Below are positions 23,898-40,991 of a stretch of 40,991 bases of DNA, piece after piece (position 1 is the first letter of the stretch; every line of letters starts with the position of its first letter). Under the pieces are notes generated by a model, which saw only the letters and a list, made by a program, of their open reading frames with translations, had not been told where the DNA came from and made no database searches. Location: the IMG/VR virus record IMGVR_UViG_3300038324_000021, positions 1 through 40,991 of that record; one strand, 5' to 3'. The DNA is from a virus. The translations under genes and the position numbers were made by a program.

Positions 23898-24238
23898 TTT
23901 TGCCTCACATTCTTTTTGCCAGTGCCACGTGGTCGTCCATGCAACCAGTCGCGCACCTCGTTGAAATACCACCGCTTGGTGGCAAAGGGATCGTCCTCAC
24001 GCCCAAGGCACACCGGCCTTGGAAATGTGCCGTCACGCATCCACTTGTAGATCACAGCCTCGGATACCCCGAGCCATGCAGCAATCTGGCTGATCTTGAT
24101 CATGCGCTCTTCCGGTGGTGGGAAGGAGCCGCGTTCAATCAGTTGCAGGACAGAGGCGGGGGATGTGTTGAGCAGCCCTGCAACCTTGCTGAGAACATCG
24201 GTCAGCTCGTCCTCAGAAGGGGACTTGGGTTTGGCCAT
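23894..24238 (-). CDS. helix-turn-helix DNA-binding protein
   Basis: 114 residues, start inside the 3' end of the primase gene. Residues about 46-80 form a MerR/excisionase-type helix-turn-helix: MIKISQIAAWLGVSEAVIYK followed by WMRDGTFPRPVCLGR and KRWYFNEVRDWL. An acidic N-terminal helix precedes it (EDELTDVLSKVAGLL). Such small HTH_17-like proteins can be excisionases, repressors or replication accessories. With no integrase nearby, a replication or regulatory role is more likely. Confidence 0.7.
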   Translation of the reverse strand: MAKPKSPSEDELTDVLSKVAGLLNTSPASVLQLIERGSFPPPEERMIKISQIAAWLGVSEAVIYKWMRDGTFPRPVCLGREDDPFATKRWYFNEVRDWLHGRPRGTGKKNVRQK

Positions 24239-25769
24239 CGTCGCCCTCCACTGTCAAGTCAACCTCTTCGGTGTCGAACTCTGGCACACGCCAGACTCGC
24301 ACAGTTGTGTGGTTGCCGTCCTCTTTGCGAATCCGCATGACCGACAGCGCCTTGTCAGGGTCGTCATGCATGTCTTTGAGAATCTGCTGGATCTGTGGGC
24401 GGTTGAGCTTCTTGAAGTCTTTGCGCTTAAGAAACTCCATGAGGCCTTGGATCTTGAACGACGTCATGCTGTTGTTGGTCCACGGCTTACCCATGATCAG
24501 CTCTTCTGGAGCCATAGCCCGCACGCGGCTGGTGCAGAACTCCTGCAGCAGCTCAATGAACTCACCTTTGGTTGTCAGTTCTGGCCGCACTTCGACCTCT
24601 GTGGCCTCGGCCATCAGCCCGTTGATCAGCACACCCCACTCTTGGTCCTTCATGACGTCAGGGCGACGGCTCAGCTCCTGCAAACATTTCTTCTGGAACT
24701 CGCGCGGGCTGTTCAGTTCTTCAAGGGTCAGCTCCAACCGCTTACCGTCCACATTGACGTAGTACAGGCGCGGATCTGACAGCATAATCGTCATGCCGGT
24801 GAGCGTGGGGAAGAACATAGGTGCACCTCCGCCGCCGATACCGAACTTGCACTTGCGGCATTTGTCCTTGTCGCAGAAGTTTACCATGGGCGGCTCTTGG
24901 CACATGAACCCATAGTCCTTGCGCTTGTGCGACTTGAGCACAGTCTCGGCCAGCTCCGACGAGCTGAGCGGTGGGTTGATGTAGCGACGGTTGAACTCGT
25001 CCACCGCCTCCTCCCAATCGTCCGGCCGCTCTTTCTTGATGGCCACGGTGACGTGCATCATGAACTTGTTCCGGCTGTCGGACACGCCACCCAGCGCCAC
25101 CAGTGTTTGCACACAAGGCGGATACTCCTTCAGCTCCGACTGCTCGGGACGCTTTTCTTCCAACGTCTTTTCAAGGTCAGAGATCGTGCAGCGTTTCGCC
25201 TCGACCACGTCCAAGAACTGCTCAAGCGACAGAGCCTCGCCCTGTGGTCCAAGCGCGTAGCGCATCGAACGCTTGGCGTTGTGATACGGCAGGTTGATGA
25301 AGTTGCCCACGTCGCCCTTGTCATGCAGCACAGCGTCCTGCTTTGGGAAGATCTCTCTGCCAGCGAAGCCCAATAGGGCTGCCGCCTCGGTCAGATACTC
25401 TCGGACAAGGGACGCCTGCTCCCATTCTTTGAGGAACAGATAGATGTGTGCTCCACCGGACTTGGACCGACACACGACAAACGGCAAGCCCGTTGTCCAC
25501 ACCCGAGCGCAAACGTCTTGCAGGTTCAGGTCGTAGTCATCGACGTCGATTGCGCCGAACTTGCACATGTTCTTTGAGTTGATTGGAATAGACCCGATAC
25601 CTTGACCGCCGTTGAGGTGCGAATGCACTTTCTCCTCGGTCATCGGCTCTCGGACCACGAAGCTTTTGGCTTCGGCTTTTCCCAGTCTTGATGTTTTTCC
25701 TACGGTGGTCTGCCCGTGGGCTACTTCAGAACCCTCGAAAGCAGACATAAAACGTGCGGCGGTAGTCAT
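24213..25769 (-). CDS. archaeo-eukaryotic-type primase (AEP)
   Basis: 518 residues with AGGAG six bases before ATG. The AEP catalytic signature is clear: FGAIDVDDYD (Asp75, Asp77) and CRSKSGGAHIYLFL (His108), followed by REIFPKQD and NFINLPYHN. A cysteine cluster C290-x8-C299-x4-C304-x2-C307 leads into KFGIGGGG and could hold zinc or an iron-sulfur cluster. The C-terminal 200 residues lack Walker motifs, so no fused helicase. The fold matches TOTE-type and phage primase-polymerases, so it may prime or also extend DNA. Confidence 0.82.
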   Translation of the reverse strand: MTTAARFMSAFEGSEVAHGQTTVGKTSRLGKAEAKSFVVREPMTEEKVHSHLNGGQGIGSIPINSKNMCKFGAIDVDDYDLNLQDVCARVWTTGLPFVVCRSKSGGAHIYLFLKEWEQASLVREYLTEAAALLGFAGREIFPKQDAVLHDKGDVGNFINLPYHNAKRSMRYALGPQGEALSLEQFLDVVEAKRCTISDLEKTLEEKRPEQSELKEYPPCVQTLVALGGVSDSRNKFMMHVTVAIKKERPDDWEEAVDEFNRRYINPPLSSSELAETVLKSHKRKDYGFMCQEPPMVNFCDKDKCRKCKFGIGGGGAPMFFPTLTGMTIMLSDPRLYYVNVDGKRLELTLEELNSPREFQKKCLQELSRRPDVMKDQEWGVLINGLMAEATEVEVRPELTTKGEFIELLQEFCTSRVRAMAPEELIMGKPWTNNSMTSFKIQGLMEFLKRKDFKKLNRPQIQQILKDMHDDPDKALSVMRIRKEDGNHTTVRVWRVPEFDTEEVDLTVEGDDGQTQVPF

Positions 25770-25794: not shown

Positions 25795-25826
25795 GGGCGG
25801 CACAGCCCATGACCTCTGTGCCGCCC
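25795..25826 (-). promoter_or_regulatory. hairpin between SSB-like and primase genes
   Basis: A perfect 11-bp inverted repeat (GGGCGGCACAG / CTGTGCCGCCC) with a 10-base loop fills most of the 74-base gap between the SSB-like stop and the primase start. No U-run follows on the leftward transcript. It could be an attenuator, a processing site, or a block that lets the SSB-like protein be made in excess over primase. Confidence 0.6.
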
Positions 25827-25843: not shown

Positions 25844-26662
25844 TTAGAAGGGGATGTCGTCGTCCGAGTACCCACCGCCGCCAGCGGCACCCGGAGTCTG
25901 GTTCATGTCAGGGGCAGGGCTTTCTGCCTGCGCCTTGACCTCGCCTGCCACAACACTGTCGCGGAAAGCTTTGGCCTCTTGGAACACGTTCTTGTCATCG
26001 ACCAGACCGATGTTCTCGACCACCCAGTTCGAGAAGTCACCCTTGTCGTTGGACTCCTCGACAGCCCGCAGCTTCCACATCGACGCATACAGCGGCGGCG
26101 TGATCATCTGCCCTGTCTTCGGGTGCTTGATCTTCTTCATAGCGATCTGTGTCTTCCAGCGACGGCTGACCTTGAGCTGTGTGGACTTCATGTCCACGAC
26201 CACAGGCTGGGTCATGCCATCTTCTTCGACGATCAGGCAGAAGTGCTGGTCCGACTTGACCACCTCGTTGCCATCGGGAAGGATCTCCTTGCCGCCGCTG
26301 CGAGTGGTGTTTTGCAGACGTGGATCCGAAGGCGAGATCTCGCCACGGAAGCCGCCGCCCTGCTCACGCGGTGTGAACTCCAGATACTTGGTGGTCTGGT
26401 AACACGGCACGACAGTGATACCCTCGTCGCCCGACCAGAACTGGCCAGTGACGTTGTTGAACGGATCACCTGACGACAGGCCTTCGATGTACTCAGCCTT
26501 CTTCTTGTTGAGCTGAGGGCTCAGCGATTGGGCCAGACGGACGAACGGGATCTGCATCTCTGAGCTGTCATACGACGCGCCTTCACCGGCGTTCTCAAAG
26601 ATATCGTCCATCAGATCTGCGGACACTTCGGTGGTCTTTGCTTTTGCTACTGCGGTGTTCAT
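25844..26662 (-). CDS. single-stranded DNA-binding protein
   Basis: 272 residues, CGGAG upstream. The core (MQIPFVRLAQSLSPQLNKKK, GDPFNNVTGQFWSGDEGITV, VVPCYQTTKYLEFTPREQGG) matches a phage ssDNA-binding family unlike bacterial SSB. The tail is Gly-rich and ends SDDDIPF, the acidic-hydrophobic tip with which SSBs recruit partner proteins. It precedes the primase in the operon. Would coat single strands at the fork and contact polymerase and helicase. Start overlaps the upstream stop as ATGA. Confidence 0.75.
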   Translation of the reverse strand: MNTAVAKAKTTEVSADLMDDIFENAGEGASYDSSEMQIPFVRLAQSLSPQLNKKKAEYIEGLSSGDPFNNVTGQFWSGDEGITVVPCYQTTKYLEFTPREQGGGFRGEISPSDPRLQNTTRSGGKEILPDGNEVVKSDQHFCLIVEEDGMTQPVVVDMKSTQLKVSRRWKTQIAMKKIKHPKTGQMITPPLYASMWKLRAVEESNDKGDFSNWVVENIGLVDDKNVFQEAKAFRDSVVAGEVKAQAESPAPDMNQTPGAAGGGGYSDDDIPF

Positions 26663-30809: not shown

Positions 30810-31030
30810 TCACACATCGCATTCTGACAGGGCGCGAGTGTTCGTGGTGCGCATACGCGTGGGACAAAAGATTAGAGCGGGGCTGGTCCCCGCTCGTTTT
30901 GATCATGGGTGTCGAGCACTGCCGCAAGAGTTGGCTGCACTACTTCAGTTCACCCCGTCCTCTGGACCGACAGCGAGGTCGAGCTGCACTGCCAGCTCAT
31001 GACCCATCACGGTATCGATTGCGGCCGTGA
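30785..31030 (+). CDS. small Trp/Cys-containing protein after spanins
   Basis: 81 residues from ATG 30785, overlapping the spanin end by 25 bases. The first 57 residues look protein-like: WWKKLSLITHRILTGRECSW, then CAYAWDKRLERGWSP and VEHCRKSWLHYF, with three cysteines. The C-terminal quarter lies antisense to a leftward gene and may be read-through. I recall similar Cys/Trp-rich small proteins downstream of Rz1 genes but cannot name a family. Confidence 0.45.
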   Translation: MWWKKLSLITHRILTGRECSWCAYAWDKRLERGWSPLVLIMGVEHCRKSWLHYFSSPRPLDRQRGRAALPAHDPSRYRLRP

Positions 31031-35360: not shown

Positions 35361-35390
35361 ATCATGTTCCTTTTGTTTGATACTGGTTGT

Positions 35391-35419
35391 AGGTTAGTTG
35401 TTGGTGGTGGTAGTGTCAA
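35391..35419 (-). promoter_or_regulatory. sigma70-type promoter of leftward operon
   Basis: On the minus strand TTGACA (35414-35419) is followed after exactly 17 bases by TAACCT (35391-35396), 31 bases before the first start codon. The -35 box is perfect; the -10 matches at four of six positions. Confidence 0.55.
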
Positions 35420-35557
35420 GCTTCTCGGACCTTGGGTCTTGGTTGGTTTGCTATCTGAGGTTGAATCTTGGACCTTGGTCCGTGGGCTACTACGGTTGCT
35501 TCCCTATAGAAAGTTTTTTCCTTTTTCTGAGTGTGAGTGTTTATGTTTTCTGTGAGG

Positions 35558-35780
35558 CGTAGTATCTGTAGTACCTCGTGTTTTTTGTTGTTTTTTGTGT
35601 TGTTTTACAATGACTTAACCCTGTTTTTTAGTACTACAAAGCACCGTAGTACTTGGCTTAGGTACTACGGTAAAAACGTAGTACTTGCCTGTCCTAGTCA
35701 GGTTGTTGGTTTTACCAACGTAGTACTTCACATCCGCAGGTTTTGACTTTTTGTCAACTCAAAGTAGTAAAGTACTTACC
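35558..35780. repeat. GTAGTAC-type element array
   Basis: A gene-free region (35361-35904) contains about eight copies of a GTAGTACTT-like element. Direct copies lie near 35558, 35567, 35644, 35676, 35718 and, broken, 35764-35777; inverted copies lie near 35630 and 35660. The pair at 35643-35671 makes a perfect 10-bp inverted repeat (ACCGTAGTAC / GTACTACGGT). Further small inverted repeats lie at 35708-35719 region and 35743-35757 (TTGAC / GTCAA). The surrounding DNA is AT-rich with T-runs. It may be a replication origin, an operator array or a packaging-linked site. Confidence 0.7.
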
Positions 35781-35904
35781 CAAAAAAAGACTATAGGGAA
35801 GGCCAAAAGGTGAACACTGTAAGAACATTGCCGGAACTCGTACTGGCTTGAGCTTCGAGGCTTGTTGGTTTATTGTGAAAGCATTCGCATTTTGGGGGTG
35901 ATCC

Positions 35905-37013: not shown

Positions 37014-37346
37014 TCATGGTTCGCAGGCTCGATAGTAGCCGCCCGAGAACCGTGGCCAGTCCTGCGCGTGGCCTGCTTCGACCATCAGGCATGCGAGATC
37101 GAGGCCCTGCGCGTTGAAACACTGGGCCACGACCCTGTCATAGTCGTCGACGCCCTTGATCCGGCACGTCAGCTCTGCGTCCCGCGTCAATTCTTGCATG
37201 TGCTCTGCGGCTCTGCGCCCTGCGCGCCGGTCCATCTCGGGTGCATCGATGCCCCAGAGGCGAACGGCTTGGCCGTCGGCGGTGAGTGTGTCACCGTCGA
37301 CGGCCGCCGCGCCTAGCAGGATGATAAACGCCTGCCCTAGTCCCAT
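37014..37346 (-). CDS. staphylococcal-nuclease-like protein
   Basis: 110 residues from ATG 37346, overlapping the upstream gene by ten bases. SNase-fold residues are in place: VDGDTLT, then RLWGIDAPE (Arg29, Glu37) and DYDRVVAQCF (Arg71), followed by LACLMVEAGHAQDW. The first 15 residues (GLGQAFIILLGAAA) are hydrophobic and resemble a short signal peptide, so it may be exported. Expected to cut DNA or RNA using calcium. Converges with the PD-ExK nuclease gene seven bases away. Confidence 0.75.
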   Translation of the reverse strand: MGLGQAFIILLGAAAVDGDTLTADGQAVRLWGIDAPEMDRRAGRRAAEHMQELTRDAELTCRIKGVDDYDRVVAQCFNAQGLDLACLMVEAGHAQDWPRFSGGYYRACEP

Positions 37347-37552
37347 TCCTTTTGATCCCCCTGCGCCTCTGCGTCTGCGTACCCTGCGCGGTAGGCTTCG
37401 ATCTCTGCCTCTGTCAGTTCTGCGCCTTCGATCTCGGGCGAGAGGTACGTGCCGCCGGTGAAGTAGTGCGGCCGCCATTGGCGACCGTACCAGAAGTCCG
37501 CGCGACCCCTGTCATAGGGGCCGCCGTGCCTTTCATCGTGTTGCGTGGTCAT
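37337..37552 (-). CDS. hypothetical phage protein
   Basis: 71 residues from ATG 37552, overlapping the upstream stop as ATGA. Contains GGPYDRGRADFWYGRQWRPH and LTEAEIEAYRAGYADAEAQG, a pattern (DRGxAD-YYGR, then AYxAGY) I recall from small uncharacterised proteins of many phages. Function unknown. Confidence 0.65.
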   Translation of the reverse strand: MTTQHDERHGGPYDRGRADFWYGRQWRPHYFTGGTYLSPEIEGAELTEAEIEAYRAGYADAEAQGDQKEWD

Positions 37553-37772: not shown

Positions 37773-38471
37773 TCAGTGCATCGGGATTGCGATTGATTTG
37801 GGCGACTTGGTCGACGTGCCGCCACACAGGCGGCAGGCGGCGCATTGCACGCGTGCCCCCGCTTCTTTGCTTGCGGGGCAAAGGATCTCGTTTTCGCTGT
37901 CCAGCTCGGCAAGATTCTGCAGCACGCGGAAAGTCCGCTGGCCCTTGGCCCACGCTGCGCGCGCCTCGGCGTGGCTGTCCGCGCTCTGCATCGCAAGATC
38001 TGGACGCCACCCGCTTGCGTGGGTGTACGCTGTCCAGCTGGCGGCATCGCGCAAAAGATCCGTCCACACGTGGTCTGGAACACAGGCGGGGTCACCGTAC
38101 GTACCAATGCGCACGACGCGACCCGCGCCAATCGCTGCGCGCAGGCGTTGGCGCTGCGCTTCGGGATATGCGCCGTTGTGATACGCGCGCCACGTGATCA
38201 GCACACCCTGCCCGAGGTTCACGTAACATTTGCGATCCTTGGCAATCTTGCGCGCAGGATCCTCGGTCACCTCGCCCCGATGCTGGCAGGTGCCGCAAAT
38301 CGTTGCGTCGGCGCCCGTCTTGCTTGCGTCGCGCGGGTCAATATCCTCGCACAGGATATAGGTCTGCACGACGCCGCCCGTCTTGCGGTTGGCCTCGGTA
38401 TAGTTTGCGATGACAACGATTGGTTGCCCGTCGTACTTGCTCGGGCCGCGATAGATAATTCCGTTTTTCAT
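37773..38471 (-). CDS. conserved phage protein with Cys clusters
   Basis: 232 residues, AAAAGGAG upstream. Very characteristic: IYRGPSKYDGQPIVVIANYT, ICGTCQHRG, CYVNLGQG, VVRIGTYGDPACVPDHVWTD, AYTHASGW and a final CPASKEAGARVQ / CAACRLCGG cluster. I recognise this as a widespread phage and plasmid family of unknown function. Several CxxC pairs suggest one or two zinc or iron-sulfur sites. It has its own promoter-like sequence upstream. Confidence 0.75.
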   Translation of the reverse strand: MKNGIIYRGPSKYDGQPIVVIANYTEANRKTGGVVQTYILCEDIDPRDASKTGADATICGTCQHRGEVTEDPARKIAKDRKCYVNLGQGVLITWRAYHNGAYPEAQRQRLRAAIGAGRVVRIGTYGDPACVPDHVWTDLLRDAASWTAYTHASGWRPDLAMQSADSHAEARAAWAKGQRTFRVLQNLAELDSENEILCPASKEAGARVQCAACRLCGGTSTKSPKSIAIPMH

Positions 38472-38498
38472 AGTTCAAACTCCTTTTGAGACGTGGAT

Positions 38499-38526
38499 AG
38501 GATACCAGATAACAAGCTAAGCACAA
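38499..38526 (-). promoter_or_regulatory. promoter-like sequence for Cys-cluster gene
   Basis: On the minus strand TTGTGC (38521-38526) and TATCCT (38499-38504) are 16 bases apart and lie 28 bases before the start codon at 38471. Each box matches the sigma70 consensus at four of six positions. Confidence 0.4.
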
Positions 38527-38564
38527 GTGAAAAAGCACGCCGTTTACATGCCCTTGCATCTATG

Positions 38565-38644
38565 CCCTGCGCCCTGCGCCCCGCGTCTTTCTTTTATTAT
38601 CTCCCTGCGCCCTGCGCCCTGCGCCCTGCGCCCTGCGCCCTGCG
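38565..38644 (+). repeat. CCCTGCG heptamer arrays
   Basis: Two perfect copies at 38565-38578 and six perfect tandem copies at 38603-38644, separated by a 24-base pyrimidine/AT-rich spacer. Isolated copies of the same CTGCGCCCTGCG core occur in the nuclease genes near 36946, 37210 and 37360. Confidence 0.85.
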
Positions 38645-38720
38645 CGCCGCCTCTTCTCTTTTTATATGTCCAAGGCCCAAGGTGCGAGGCCAGCTCGATC
38701 GCCAGCCCCGCGCCGTGGTC

Positions 38721-38945
38721 CTAGTAAAGGTCCAGCTGGTCCAGCTGGTCCAGCCTTAGCCAGCGCGTCTCTGCCTGCGCCCGTGACGTGGATGGCCCGC
38801 CAGCTGGCTCGATACATACGATCGAGCTTTCTGGATACATGTCGCGGAAGTATTCGGTGACGCTCTCGACGCCATCGTCGAGCTCCATCGTGACGCCGAA
38901 TTCGTCGCCGCATTCGTCGAGCAAGGTTGCGTGATATGTTGCCAT
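38721..38945 (-). CDS. hypothetical early protein with repeat tail
   Basis: 74 residues. N-terminal MATYHATLLDECGDEFGVTM then YFRDMYPESSIVCIEP, a beta-alpha-beta type small protein. The last residues LRLDQLDQLDLY are encoded by three tandem 9-bp units (GGTCCAGCT on the plus strand, 38729-38755). It is the last of the hairpin-spaced genes; the 80-bp spacer upstream reaches back to the previous stop. Confidence 0.55.
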   Translation of the reverse strand: MATYHATLLDECGDEFGVTMELDDGVESVTEYFRDMYPESSIVCIEPAGGPSTSRAQAETRWLRLDQLDQLDLY

Positions 38946-39020
38946 GGTTTGTTCCTTTCAAAAGATGCAGGATCGCATCGTGACGCCGCCCCGTAGGGCG
39001 GCGCTGCGATACGGTCCTAG
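38941..39020 (-). promoter_or_regulatory. hairpin-plus-RBS spacer, copy A
   Basis: Covers the whole gap between two genes, from the stop of the 99-residue gene (39017-39019) to the start of the next (38943-38945). In transcript order it holds a GC hairpin (arms CGCCGCCC / GGGCGGCG, four-base loop), a second small hairpin (GATGC / GCATC), then AAAGGAAC before ATG. 74 of 80 bases match copy B. Confidence 0.75.
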
Positions 39021-39316
39021 TCGGCCATCGCCAGATACTCGGCCACGGTTGGTACGTCTGGTCCGTAGGTTTCCTGCCATGCCGGATCAGCTGCGACCAG
39101 CCGCCCGTACCGCTTGACCTCGATCGCGTACGTGTCGCCCATCTCGAACGATCCGAATGTTGCGTCTGACTTGGCCGCGACCATCCAGCGCGAATACATA
39201 TCCTCATTTTTAGCGAGCTTGTAAGTTTTCAGCACGCGCCACTCGAAGCCAGCTGGTCCCTCGTAAATCGCGTACGGGTTCTCGATCGGGCGTGTTTTTG
39301 CAAATGGGTTTGCCAT
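39017..39316 (-). CDS. hypothetical early protein
   Basis: 99 residues. NPFAKTRPIENPYAIYEGPA then GFEWRVLKTYKLAKNEDMYS and RWMVAAKSDATFGSFEMGDT, a beta-rich pattern with several aromatic residues that I recall from phage early proteins without function. Start preceded by the AAAGGAAC motif of spacer copy B. Confidence 0.55.
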   Translation of the reverse strand: MANPFAKTRPIENPYAIYEGPAGFEWRVLKTYKLAKNEDMYSRWMVAAKSDATFGSFEMGDTYAIEVKRYGRLVAADPAWQETYGPDVPTVAEYLAMAD

Positions 39317-39391
39317 GGTTCGTTCCTTTCAAAAGATGCAGGATCGCATCGTGACGCGGCCCCGCAGGGCCGCGCTTCGATACGGTCTTAG
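39312..39391 (-). promoter_or_regulatory. hairpin-plus-RBS spacer, copy B
   Basis: Fills the gap between the stop at 39388-39390 and the start at 39316. GC hairpin arms are CGCGGCCC / GGGCCGCG with a four-base loop. It differs from copy A at six positions, two of which are partners in the stem and keep the pair. Confidence 0.75.
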
Positions 39392-39639
39392 GTTTCGTCG
39401 AGTATGTCGCCTTGTCCGTCCTCAATGGTGACGTCTGAAGGGCGCTTCATGTCTGTTTCGACGCTGCCCAATTCACCTAGTTCGTGTGAAGTTTCGGTGC
39501 CGTCGGTCCACTCAATATAAAGAGTGTGCCACTTGATGCCCCAATCGGCCACGTCCTTCCACGTGCGCCCTTCGGGCAGCTCGAGTTCGCCGCAATGCGC
39601 TGAATTATAGCTGGTCACGATTGTGATTGTGTTGCTCAT
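39388..39639 (-). CDS. hypothetical early protein
   Basis: 83 residues. ITIVTSYNSAHCGELELPEG then RTWKDVADWGIKWHTLYIEW and an acidic C-terminus (TSHELGELGSVETDMKRPSD). The 'ELPEGRTWKDV' pattern is one I recall from small phage proteins without known function. AAAGGAAAC precedes the start. Confidence 0.55.
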   Translation of the reverse strand: MSNTITIVTSYNSAHCGELELPEGRTWKDVADWGIKWHTLYIEWTDGTETSHELGELGSVETDMKRPSDVTIEDGQGDILDET

Positions 39640-39660
39640 GTCTGTTTCCTTTTAGATGGT

Positions 39661-39680
39661 GCCCGCGCCGAAGCGCGGGC
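39661..39680 (-). promoter_or_regulatory. intergenic hairpin C
   Basis: Inverted repeat GCCCGCG / CGCGGGC with a six-base loop lies between the stop at 39690 and the AAAGGAAAC ribosome-binding site of the next gene. Same position in the spacer as hairpins A, B, E, F and G, with different sequence. No U-run follows. Confidence 0.65.
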
Positions 39681-39689
39681 TGTTGAGGC

Positions 39690-39866
39690 TTAGTGTCCTG
39701 CTTCGATTAGCTGGTCGAGCCGGTCAAACGCCTGCTGCATCAGCTGCTGCGCCTCTTCATTCCGGCCCGCTGACAGCATCAGCAGCATCATCTCGAGCTT
39801 GAATTTGGCCGCTGCGGCCGTGGTGGTGGTCGCGGGCTGGTCTGTCTCGATTGCGGTGAATTCCAT
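39690..39866 (-). CDS. small Thr/Ala and Met/Gln-rich protein
   Basis: 58 residues from ATG 39866 with AAAAGGAAC upstream; an upstream frame extension runs through the hairpin and another gene and is rejected. N-terminal MEFTAIETDQPATTTTAAAA then helices KFKLEMMLLMLSAGRNEEAQ and QLMQQAFDRLDQLIEAGH, a helical hairpin. No family recognised. Confidence 0.5.
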   Translation of the reverse strand: MEFTAIETDQPATTTTAAAAKFKLEMMLLMLSAGRNEEAQQLMQQAFDRLDQLIEAGH

Positions 39867-39913
39867 GGTTTGTTCCTTTTGAGATTGTATGTAGGTTGTG
39901 ATGATAGGCGATA

Positions 39914-39954
39914 GCAGGGGCGGCGTAAACCCCAAGTATTGGAGCCGCCCCTGC
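39914..39954 (-). promoter_or_regulatory. intergenic hairpin D
   Basis: Perfect 11-bp arms (GCAGGGGCGGC / GCCGCCCCTGC) with a 19-base loop that itself holds CCAA / TTGG. It lies just after the stop of the 99-residue gene and before an AT-richer stretch with GTAGGTTGTGA at 39891-39901. The longest of the series and the best candidate for a terminator stem, but without a U-run. Confidence 0.65.
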
Positions 39955-39960
39955 GCCGGT

Positions 39961-40260
39961 TCAGCCGATCCAGACGAACGTCTTGACGTCCCCGATCGTC
40001 TTATGCAGCTCGAACGCCTCGCGCCCGTGCAGCTCGATATAGCGGGCCTTGGACGGCGCGCCCTCGCGCTTGCTGATCTTGTACGTGGCAACGCCTTGCT
40101 CGATCGCCTTGGCGCGCAGCTCGCGCTTACGAGCCTCCAGCTCTTTCAGTATGCTGTCGGTATAGGCCAGCGCCGCGCCCAAGTCCTCGATGCTATCCAC
40201 CTTTTCGATGGTGTTGGCGTAGGTAGTCTGAACGCGCTTCAGGTTTGAAATGGTAGTCAT
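39961..40260 (-). CDS. coiled-coil early protein
   Basis: 99 residues. ISNLKRVQTTYANTIEKVDS then ALAYTDSILKELEARKRELR form helices likely to coil. The C-terminal half is basic then aromatic (YKISKREGAPSKARYIELHG, VKTFVWIG). AAAAGGAAC precedes the start. Function unknown. Confidence 0.55.
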   Translation of the reverse strand: MTTISNLKRVQTTYANTIEKVDSIEDLGAALAYTDSILKELEARKRELRAKAIEQGVATYKISKREGAPSKARYIELHGREAFELHKTIGDVKTFVWIG

Positions 40261-40281
40261 GTTGTGTTCCTTTTGAGAGGT

Positions 40282-40304
40282 GGCGCGGGCACCATGCCCG
40301 CGCC
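40282..40304 (-). promoter_or_regulatory. intergenic hairpin E
   Basis: Perfect 10-bp arms (GGCGCGGGCA / TGCCCGCGCC) with a three-base loop, between the stop at 40312 and the AAAAGGAAC site at about 40266-40275. Its flanks match hairpin F almost base for base over about 47 bases. Confidence 0.7.
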
Positions 40305-40311
40305 GTTGGGG

Positions 40312-40506
40312 TTAGTCTTTGCGAAAGGTGGTATGCGTGATGTACTCGCCATCGTCAGCGAATGACGCAACCTCGATCACGTCGTACCCGCCAAAGTCAC
40401 CGCCTCGGATGTATTCAGACACCCACCGCAAAGCTTCGGCCAGCTGGCTGAATTCTTCAAGCAGCTCCTCGGAGAGGTAGCCATAATCACCGTACACGTA
40501 AAACAT
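40312..40506 (-). CDS. small acidic early protein
   Basis: 64 residues from ATG 40506 with AAAAGGAAC directly upstream. FYVYGDYGYLSEELLEEFSQ then LAEALRWVSEYIRGGDFGGY and DVIEVASFADDGEYITHTTF: a helix followed by beta strands, rich in Tyr and acidic residues. No family recognised. Acidic early proteins of this size can mimic DNA, but the fold cannot be judged. Confidence 0.55.
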   Translation of the reverse strand: MFYVYGDYGYLSEELLEEFSQLAEALRWVSEYIRGGDFGGYDVIEVASFADDGEYITHTTFRKD

Positions 40507-40528
40507 TTCATGTTCCTTTTGAGATGGT

Positions 40529-40551
40529 GGCGCGGGCACCATGCCCGCGCC
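40529..40551 (-). promoter_or_regulatory. intergenic hairpin F
   Basis: Identical 23-base hairpin to E, again between a stop (40560) and an AAAAGGAAC site. The two flanking genes are unrelated in sequence, so the spacer has been duplicated or exchanged independently of the coding parts. Confidence 0.7.
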
Positions 40552-40559
40552 GTTGGGGT

Positions 40560-40799
40560 TTAAGCTTCGACCGTGTCGGCGCTCTCGGACACCTTCTGAA
40601 GCTTGTCCTTGAGATACACCGCCTCAAGCTCGAGAGACGTCACCGCGCCCGCCAGAGCCTCGCGCGCCGTACGGTTGAGGCTGGTCTGAATCCAGTTATC
40701 CGACGCTTTGGTCATCTCGATCAGCGCGAACAGCTCGCGGGTGGTGAAGGTCAGGCGAACCTGAAGTTCCGTGGTGTCGGTGTAAGCGTATGTTGCCAT
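40560..40799 (-). CDS. hypothetical early protein, first of operon
   Basis: 79 residues from ATG 40799; the frame continues upstream through the promoter and is not coding there. ATYAYTDTTELQVRLTFTTR then ELFALIEMTKASDNWIQTSL and a helical end (GAVTSLELEAVYLKDKLQKV). The 'LTREEL-LI' type start resembles small alpha-beta phage early proteins, no name assigned. AAAAGGAAC upstream. Confidence 0.55.
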   Translation of the reverse strand: MATYAYTDTTELQVRLTFTTRELFALIEMTKASDNWIQTSLNRTAREALAGAVTSLELEAVYLKDKLQKVSESADTVEA

Positions 40800-40820
40800 T
40801 GTGGCGGTTCCTTTTGAAAC

Positions 40821-40843
40821 AGCGTCGGGACCATCCCGCCGCT
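40821..40843 (-). promoter_or_regulatory. leader hairpin G
   Basis: Imperfect inverted repeat (AGCG-T-CGGGA / TCCCG-C-CGCT) with a three-base loop between the promoter and the first gene. Same position relative to AAAAGGAAC as the intergenic hairpins, so even the first gene has this element in its leader. Confidence 0.6.
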
Positions 40844-40845
40844 TG

Positions 40846-40879
40846 CCCTCTAGAATAGAGGGGCCAGCACCAGTGTCAA
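40846..40879 (-). promoter_or_regulatory. early promoter with palindromic -10 region
   Basis: On the minus strand TTGACA (40874-40879), 16 bases, TATTCT (40852-40857), about 50 bases before the first start. The -10 box lies in a perfect inverted repeat (CCCTCTA / TAGAGGG, three-base centre, 40846-40862), a likely operator. Best promoter seen in the window. Confidence 0.65.
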
Positions 40880-40938: not shown

Positions 40939-40982
40939 GCCGCTCGATCACCGGCCGCGCGCCGCTCGATCACCGGCCGCGC
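40939..40982. repeat. 22-bp tandem repeat at window end
   Basis: Two exact copies of a 22-bp GC-rich unit (40939-40960 and 40961-40982) starting GCCGCTCGATCACC, followed by a partial similar GC stretch at the window edge. No gene is seen between 40880 and 40991. Confidence 0.85.
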
Positions 40983-40991
40983 CGCCCGCGC

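Follow-up and report, generated by a model that had tools for sequence, protein, structure and literature searches.

Why should consecutive, mutually unrelated small genes of a phage be set apart by spacers that carry stable hairpins? The locus that raises this question lies at the right end of virus record IMGVR_UViG_3300038324_000021, the whole of which (40,991 bp, ~57% GC; hereafter the window) was analysed, and consists of a leftward cluster of seven small open reading frames (ORFs), g1 to g7 (40799 to 38721), followed by g8. In the rest of the window most genes overlap or almost touch, while g1–g7 are set apart by spacers of 50–94 nucleotides (nt). An original prediction had described these seven genes as separated or preceded by a GC-rich hairpin close after the previous stop codon, followed by a ribosome-binding site (RBS), and its coordinates and sequences proved to be right. 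On balance, we favour the reading that the spacers are sense-strand RNA connectors, which join the cistrons of a polycistronic early transcript and would act as intercistronic barriers. One type among them, represented by the spacers S6 and S7, is a structured RNA absent from Rfam.

The stop-to-start spacers S2 to S7 measure 53, 51, 94, 50, 71 and 71 nt, and their folding z-scores, computed against 1000 dinucleotide shuffles, are -3.0, -4.0, -3.9, -3.4, -4.4 and -5.1, respectively. The hairpins therefore exceed those of shuffled sequence, the comparison by which the original prediction had proposed to be judged. A hairpin spacer had been claimed for all seven genes, and this holds for all six of S2–S7; S1, with a weaker z-score of -2.5, is a 5' leader and not a post-stop spacer. 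Furthermore, a scan of the whole 41 kb for perfect stems of at least 8 bp with at least 8 G-C pairs and a loop of up to 9 nt returned five stems, all or nearly all GC, and all five are located inside spacers of the g1–g7 cluster. The elements of the cluster are as follows:

40821–40843, minus strand: S1 leader hairpin, AGCG-g-CGGGA(TGG)TCCCG-a-CGCT, in the 5' leader of g1 (the z-score of -2.5 is that of the whole leader).
40529–40551, minus strand: S2 hairpin of 10 bp, GGCGCGGGCA(TGG)TGCCCGCGCC, 8 nt after the stop codon and 22 nt before the ATG (spacer 40507–40559).
40282–40304, minus strand: S3 hairpin, the same as that of S2, 7 nt after the stop codon and 21 nt before the ATG (spacer 40261–40311).
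39914–39954, minus strand: S4 hairpin, an 11-bp GC stem around CTCC-AATACTT-GGGG-TTTACGC (spacer 39867–39960).
39661–39680, minus strand: S5 hairpin, 8 bp, all GC, with a cUUCGg tetraloop, 9 nt after the stop codon and 21 nt before the ATG (spacer 39640–39689).
39322–39390, minus strand: S6 connector RNA, from the g5 stop codon to the g6 Shine-Dalgarno (SD) sequence, with helix P1, HP1 (cUGCGg loop, core 39355–39374) and an alternative HP2 (GATGC/GCATC).
38951–39019, minus strand: S7 connector RNA, a second copy of the S6 type with a cUACGg loop (core 38984–39003) and one fully compensated pair change.

The spacers fall into several types, i.e., the simple type (S2, S3 and S5), S4, and the longer S6/S7. 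The position of the hairpin, which had been held to be constant throughout, is so in the simple type, where it lies 7–9 nt past the stop codon and 21–22 nt short of the ATG, while S4 and S6/S7 represent different, longer types. S2 and S3 are near-identical copies, as are S6 and S7, the latter two differing by one stem pair that is swapped on both sides and by a loop change from UGCG to UACG that keeps the UNCG tetraloop. The inner motif of S4, CTCC-N7-GGGG-TTTACGC, recurs in spacers of relatives ahead of two other gene families. An A-rich SD sequence closes each spacer, this being [CT]AAAAGGAAC in S1–S4, TAAAAGGAAA in S5, and GAAAGGAAC in S6 and S7. No U-tract follows the main hairpins. It is very unlikely that the hairpins are transcription terminators or attenuators, lowering expression stepwise along the cluster, as the coding strand of the cluster is without an intrinsic-terminator-like site and the bases 3' of the S2–S5 hairpins are not T-rich; S6 and S7 do hold a weak 5-bp hairpin followed by TTTT, but relatives do not conserve the T run that follows HP2.

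Relatives were reached through g8, the primase gene, an alignment of the g3 family (34 loci) and an alignment of the g6 family (461 relatives, 80 kept), while a search with the concatenated small proteins of the cluster returned no relatives. They were thus picked through genes of this cluster, and the counts that follow give no frequency among phages at large. A covariance model was built from S6 and S7 together with seven relatives. Applied to the fetched loci, it produced 45 matches (E-values down to 1e-17), which are confined to the window and its relatives and share the strand of the cluster genes; no match was obtained in 59 unrelated viral contigs. In 45 of 45 cases the upstream ORF's stop codon coincides exactly with the start of the match (offset 0), and the next start codon lies within ~10 nt of the match end in nearly all. 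The genes that follow were assigned to 18 blast families; some of their starts are uncertain, so that at least 15 unrelated following genes is the safe figure, which bears out the expectation that the module would stand before many non-homologous genes. In a model-guided alignment, which leans towards the model, the structure has 70 two-sided changes compared to 21 in shuffles. The basal helix P1, which was outside the original model and begins only a few bases from the stop codon, covaries as well. Rfam covariance models gave no match at the gathering score in the window or in nine relatives, the best sub-threshold hit being tpke11 (E 0.3). A related yet shorter element (E 0.0015) is present in the cultured Rhodobacter phage RcapNL, where it follows the DUF2303 gene (L323, 12446–12500). 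A pattern scan for the S6/S7 tail returned one AT-rich, unrelated contig, which was set aside as chance.

The 3' strand of P1 is at the same time the 5' arm of HP2 (alignment columns 57–60), and because this strand is common to both, the two helices are mutually exclusive. Both contain covarying base pairs, and concerted changes are seen at columns 14, 57 and 91. In predicted ensembles P1 is dominant in most variants, and masking of the 15 nt from the stop codon moves the median for HP2 from 0.05 to 0.93. These data raise the possibility that S6 and S7 are translation-responsive switches, in which the terminating ribosome would cover the 5' strand of P1 and HP2 would form near the RBS, so that translation of one gene would tune initiation at the next. 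We consider this tentative, since predicted pairing of the SD sequence is about equal in the two folds (0.28 vs 0.30), which argues against a simple on-off mask, HP2 is preferred even unmasked in ~10 of 33 variants, and the RcapNL version is without HP2. Slightly more doubtful still is the fuller proposal of a mobile connector family new to Rfam, extending from the stop codon to the next SD sequence, which would sense the terminating ribosome via two exclusive, conserved helices and serve as the standard joint for plugging unrelated small genes into an early operon.

A hairpin of the simple layout is also found outside the cluster:

25795–25826, minus strand: hairpin of simple layout, 11 bp with a 10-nt loop, between a Pam3 gp34-like gene (25844–26662) and the primase gene (24213–25769).

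The gene upstream of the primase was first read as a single-stranded DNA-binding protein, an assignment that was replaced by Pam3 gp34-like. Of 22 distinct relatives, 21 carry a hairpin in the primase spacer, with diverged stems, for example GGGGGACGG/CCGTCCCCC, GAGGACGGC/GCCGTCCTC and AACAATCAC/GTGATTGTT. In the stem arms of these and of the window, which were aligned by hand and hence lean towards the structure, two-sided changes were observed at nine of nine pairs, with 100% of cells paired. The cultured phage DSL-LC04, whose primase is 37% identical, has a GAAA-loop hairpin at the same site. Similarly, a hairpin is present in most g6-carrying relatives whose spacer measures 25 nt or more; its absence from relatives with the same genes was the second outcome that would have spoken against the original prediction.

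The loops of these hairpins indicate the molecule on which selection operates. Among perfect stems in a stop-hairpin-SD-ATG context, in whose selection loop sequence played no part, 28 distinct hairpins have a 4-nt loop, of which 10 are UNCG, 10 GNRA and eight other on the coding strand, with no antisense forms (20 vs 0); of the 183 four-base loops in the background of these loci, 45 belong to the UNCG or GNRA kinds, counting either strand. Hairpin distances in this set peak at stop+7 and ATG-22. Since loops of the UNCG and GNRA kinds are strand-specific and confer stability at the RNA level, selection acts on the transcript. It is accordingly highly improbable that the hairpins are sites for DNA-binding proteins, i.e., operators or promoters as suggested for the extended start-associated sequences (ESAS) of mycobacteriophages, or hairpin promoters used by an N4-like RNA polymerase. 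The inverted repeats do lie upstream of early genes, but their stem sequences vary among spacers with pairing kept, the RNA-type tetraloops occupy one strand only, and none of the large proteins searched was recognised as an RNA polymerase (a direct PF00940 search, which lacked a positive control, is not counted towards this absence). Two pattern scans were uninformative: that of viral contigs for the exact RBS motif (CTCAAAAGGAAC..ATG) was unspecific, with assorted contigs among the matches listed, and the pattern CTCAAC..ACCATCT..AAAGGA, with 13 matches, approximately the number estimated by chance, and without strong hairpins, was rejected.

The suggestion that the spacers are exchange points for small-gene cassettes is substantiated by close relatives, in which swaps occur exactly between hairpin spacers. 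For example, L207 (G003) and L208 (G013) share 'gene A', the first gene of the same cluster in other phages, at 96% identity as well as closely similar downstream genes, while the gene following gene A is unrelated, being a 56-aa (amino acid) GFFNTPESF protein in one and a 48-aa relative of the window's g4 in the other; the borders of the swap fall in the two flanking hairpin spacers. Across the 34 loci, cassettes F2 (g4-like) and F8 each precede F1 (the g6 family), F4 and F10, with all six combinations found, and one hairpin may stand ahead of different genes just as one gene may stand behind different hairpins. In several pairs the spacers are 96–100% identical while the genes beside them are unrelated or only ~72% identical. 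The connectors thus have the appearance of standard joints, which separate cistrons and permit genes to be swapped one at a time, by what looks like ordinary homologous recombination in the shared spacer.

Exchange at the DNA level in the manner of integron attC sites, where folded single strands are recognised by a recombinase, would likewise involve small promoterless ORFs, each with a hairpin after it, and swapped cassettes, and in some relatives YTCAAC adjoins the hairpin. This is nevertheless extremely unlikely, as no RYYYAAC/GTTRRRY core pair flanks the hairpins of the window, no tyrosine recombinase (PF00589) was found in the record by a search whose control was positive in 14 genomes, the UNCG/GNRA loops on the coding strand only and the linkage to an RBS indicate RNA, and homologous recombination in the shared spacer accounts for the swaps. 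A separate observation concerns hairpin loops that occur in both orientations in close relatives while the arms around them are unchanged, namely TACCAT/ATGGTA and CAACAA/TTGTTG in the second spacer after gene A (L225/L233 and L217/L240), and CTA/TAG in L213/L214. The hairpins look as though they had been flipped in situ, for which template switching at the palindrome is a conceivable cause.

How might such connectors work? As judged from sequence, the most likely function would be insulation of cistrons together with protection of mRNA in the polycistronic early transcript. The connector, which bridges one gene's stop codon and the SD sequence of the next, would place a very stable hairpin just beyond the reach of the terminating ribosome and just outside the footprint of the initiating 30S subunit; in terms of ribosome footprints, its spacing suits a hairpin that stays folded between terminating and initiating ribosomes. 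The hairpins would block 3'-to-5' decay, such that each short cistron survives alone, and would make translation of each cistron independent of that of its neighbour. Since stop-side flank, hairpin and RBS all come with the connector, a small ORF of any kind placed between two connectors might be expressed at once, and the common connector sequence would provide the homology for a swap. In S6 and S7, a ribosome on the stop codon may shift the fold via the strand common to P1 and HP2, the RBS not being closed.

Several observations weigh against this interpretation. The predicted openness of the RBS is barely altered when the hairpin is shuffled, and the simpler idea that the hairpins merely keep the RBS open was dropped as unsupported on the same grounds. 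The simple hairpins differ in sequence, with a common function being read from their layout, and we infer the barrier and decay role from sequence evidence only. In 12 of 54 distinct loci g6 overlaps or almost touches its neighbour, and the connector is therefore not obligatory. Furthermore, hairpins are somewhat over-represented in the gaps of unrelated phages as well (54 of 250 vs 17 expected). The signal is thus partly a general one, and this suggests that the simple type belongs to a broader habit of phages.

It is also possible, especially for the long S6/S7 type, that the connectors are processing sites, at each of which the early transcript would be cleaved by an endonuclease (RNase III, RNase E or one of the phage), leaving mRNAs with a terminal hairpin. 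The regular intercistronic placement, the long interrupted helix of S6/S7 (~16–21 bp) and the hairpin in the g1 leader are in agreement with such cleavage, but the simple connectors, at 8–11 bp only, are short for RNase III by general knowledge of this enzyme, and no conserved cleavage-like motif was seen beyond the RBS. As an account of the connectors overall, processing is consequently regarded as unlikely, and insulating RNA connectors remain our preferred reading.

The genes served by the connectors, together with the promoter upstream of them and the gene after g7, are:

40852–40879, minus strand: sigma70-like promoter TTGACA-16-TATTCT upstream of the leftward early cluster, a putative assignment by consensus match only.
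40560–40799, minus strand: g1, 79 aa, without family match.
40312–40506, minus strand: g2, 64 aa, without family match.
39961–40260, minus strand: g3, 99 aa, distantly related to gene A.
39690–39866, minus strand: g4, 58 aa, homologue of a cassette swapped in and out among relatives.
39388–39639, minus strand: g5, 83 aa, without family match.
39017–39316, minus strand: g6, 99 aa, small phage protein.
38721–38945, minus strand: g7, 74 aa, without family match.
37773–38471, minus strand: g8, 232 aa, phrog_2554, the next gene after g7.

Searches of g1–g7 against Pfam and PHROG returned no convincing match, and comparison of the seven with one another showed no mutual relation, in keeping with the earlier description of these genes as unrelated. 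The g6 family has 461 relatives in viral contigs and no match in the bacterial genomes searched; in addition, Pelagibacter phage HTVC115P has a 38% match. Its predicted structure is confident (predicted local distance difference test score, pLDDT, of 95), and a comparison of the model with solved structures gave none with E up to 0.001, so that no function was assigned. The 249-nt gap before g8 (38472–38720) carries a AAAAGGAG site and shows no significant structure against dinucleotide shuffles (z -1.6); GCAGGGCGCAGGG-like repeat runs occur before g8 both there and in the relatives L139, L149 and L207. The g8 product (phrog_2554), an unexplained protein, is represented in 147 records spanning roseophages, Caulobacter, Klebsiella, Gordonia and mycobacteriophages, often near genome ends. 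By g8, the nearest isolates are roseophages (55% identity), and the host of the phage is probably a marine bacterium related to Roseobacter.

Further features were observed elsewhere in the window. The same leftward cluster contains an ORF with a staphylococcal-nuclease-like domain (37014–37478; PF00565, E 3.6e-7). A non-coding stretch on the minus strand (35361–35904), preceding a second leftward small-gene set, holds several copies of a GTACTAC/GTAGTAC palindromic motif, which could be operator or origin repeats, and a AAAAGGAAC site. Another leftward small-gene set is closed on the minus strand (30875–30895) by a terminator-like GAGCGGGG-ACCAG-CCCCGCTC followed by TAATCTTTTG, and the extreme end of the record (40940–40991) consists of a short tandem repeat (~GCGCGGCCGGTGATCGAGCGGC).

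Early regions of phages are rich in tiny genes that come and go among close relatives, and how newcomers are promptly expressed is rarely clear. The connectors suggest a concrete answer in the form of a ready-made joint of stop-side flank, hairpin and RBS, which is reused ahead of unrelated genes and marks the borders of exchange. In addition, the covariance model provides a sequence handle for finding small phage genes in metagenomes, and S6/S7 constitute a testable case of mutually exclusive RNA helices at a stop codon.

Comparison with known systems places the connectors among intercistronic RNA elements. In the early mRNA of phage T7, RNase III cuts between early genes. The present hairpins likewise lie between consecutive early phage genes, although the simple connectors are generally short for typical RNase III sites and cleavage here would be hypothetical. 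Integron attC cassettes share the arrangement of a small promoterless ORF followed by a hairpin and the exchange of cassettes, while here attC core sites and an integrase are lacking and exchange resembles homologous recombination in a shared spacer. The original prediction had likened the spacers to the start-associated sequences (SAS) of mycobacteriophages. In cluster K mycobacteriophages, SAS and ESAS are repeated elements just upstream of the starts of unrelated non-structural genes, with inverted repeats in ESAS (PMC3203893), and to that extent the likeness stands as an analogy; it does not extend to class membership. SAS is one fixed 13-bp sequence, whereas here sequence varies with pairing kept and covarying, and the SAS GGGATAGGAGCCC has five matches at up to 3 mismatches vs 9.2 expected by chance, none of them at the starts of g1–g7. 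Neither are the 17-bp imperfect inverted repeats with a shared consensus of the ESAS type seen in the spacers, whose arms are 8–11 bp, differ in sequence and carry compensated changes; indeed, the authors state that the ESAS inverted repeats do not support RNA pairing (PMC3203893).

The intercistronic hairpins of malE-malF in E. coli and puf in Rhodobacter, which are without a U-tract, block 3'-to-5' decay (PMC5927463, PMC6238624). The connectors share their layout, i.e., a stable hairpin past the upstream stop codon without a U-tract, inside an operon and followed by the next RBS. However, those known cases comprise one or few hairpins tuning particular gene pairs, whereas here they are serial, one per gene, covarying and mobile, and protection from decay would apply by analogy. 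Finally, phage T4 and other phages possess intercistronic CUUCGG hairpins, one of which stabilises the gene 32 mRNA (PMC8948821), and very stable CUUCGG tetraloop hairpins are described as occurring mostly between phage genes (Tuerk et al. 1988, as cited in PMC8948821). The CUUCGG hexamer closes an intergenic stem in S5 only (39661–39680), with exactly cUUCGg, while S6 and S7 have the similar cUGCGg and cUACGg and S2–S4 other loops. In contrast to the T4-type hairpins, the elements of the window and its relatives are stop-to-SD connectors with fixed spacing, which use GNRA and other loops too and which exist as several homologous types placed ahead of many unrelated genes, at the borders of exchanged cassettes.

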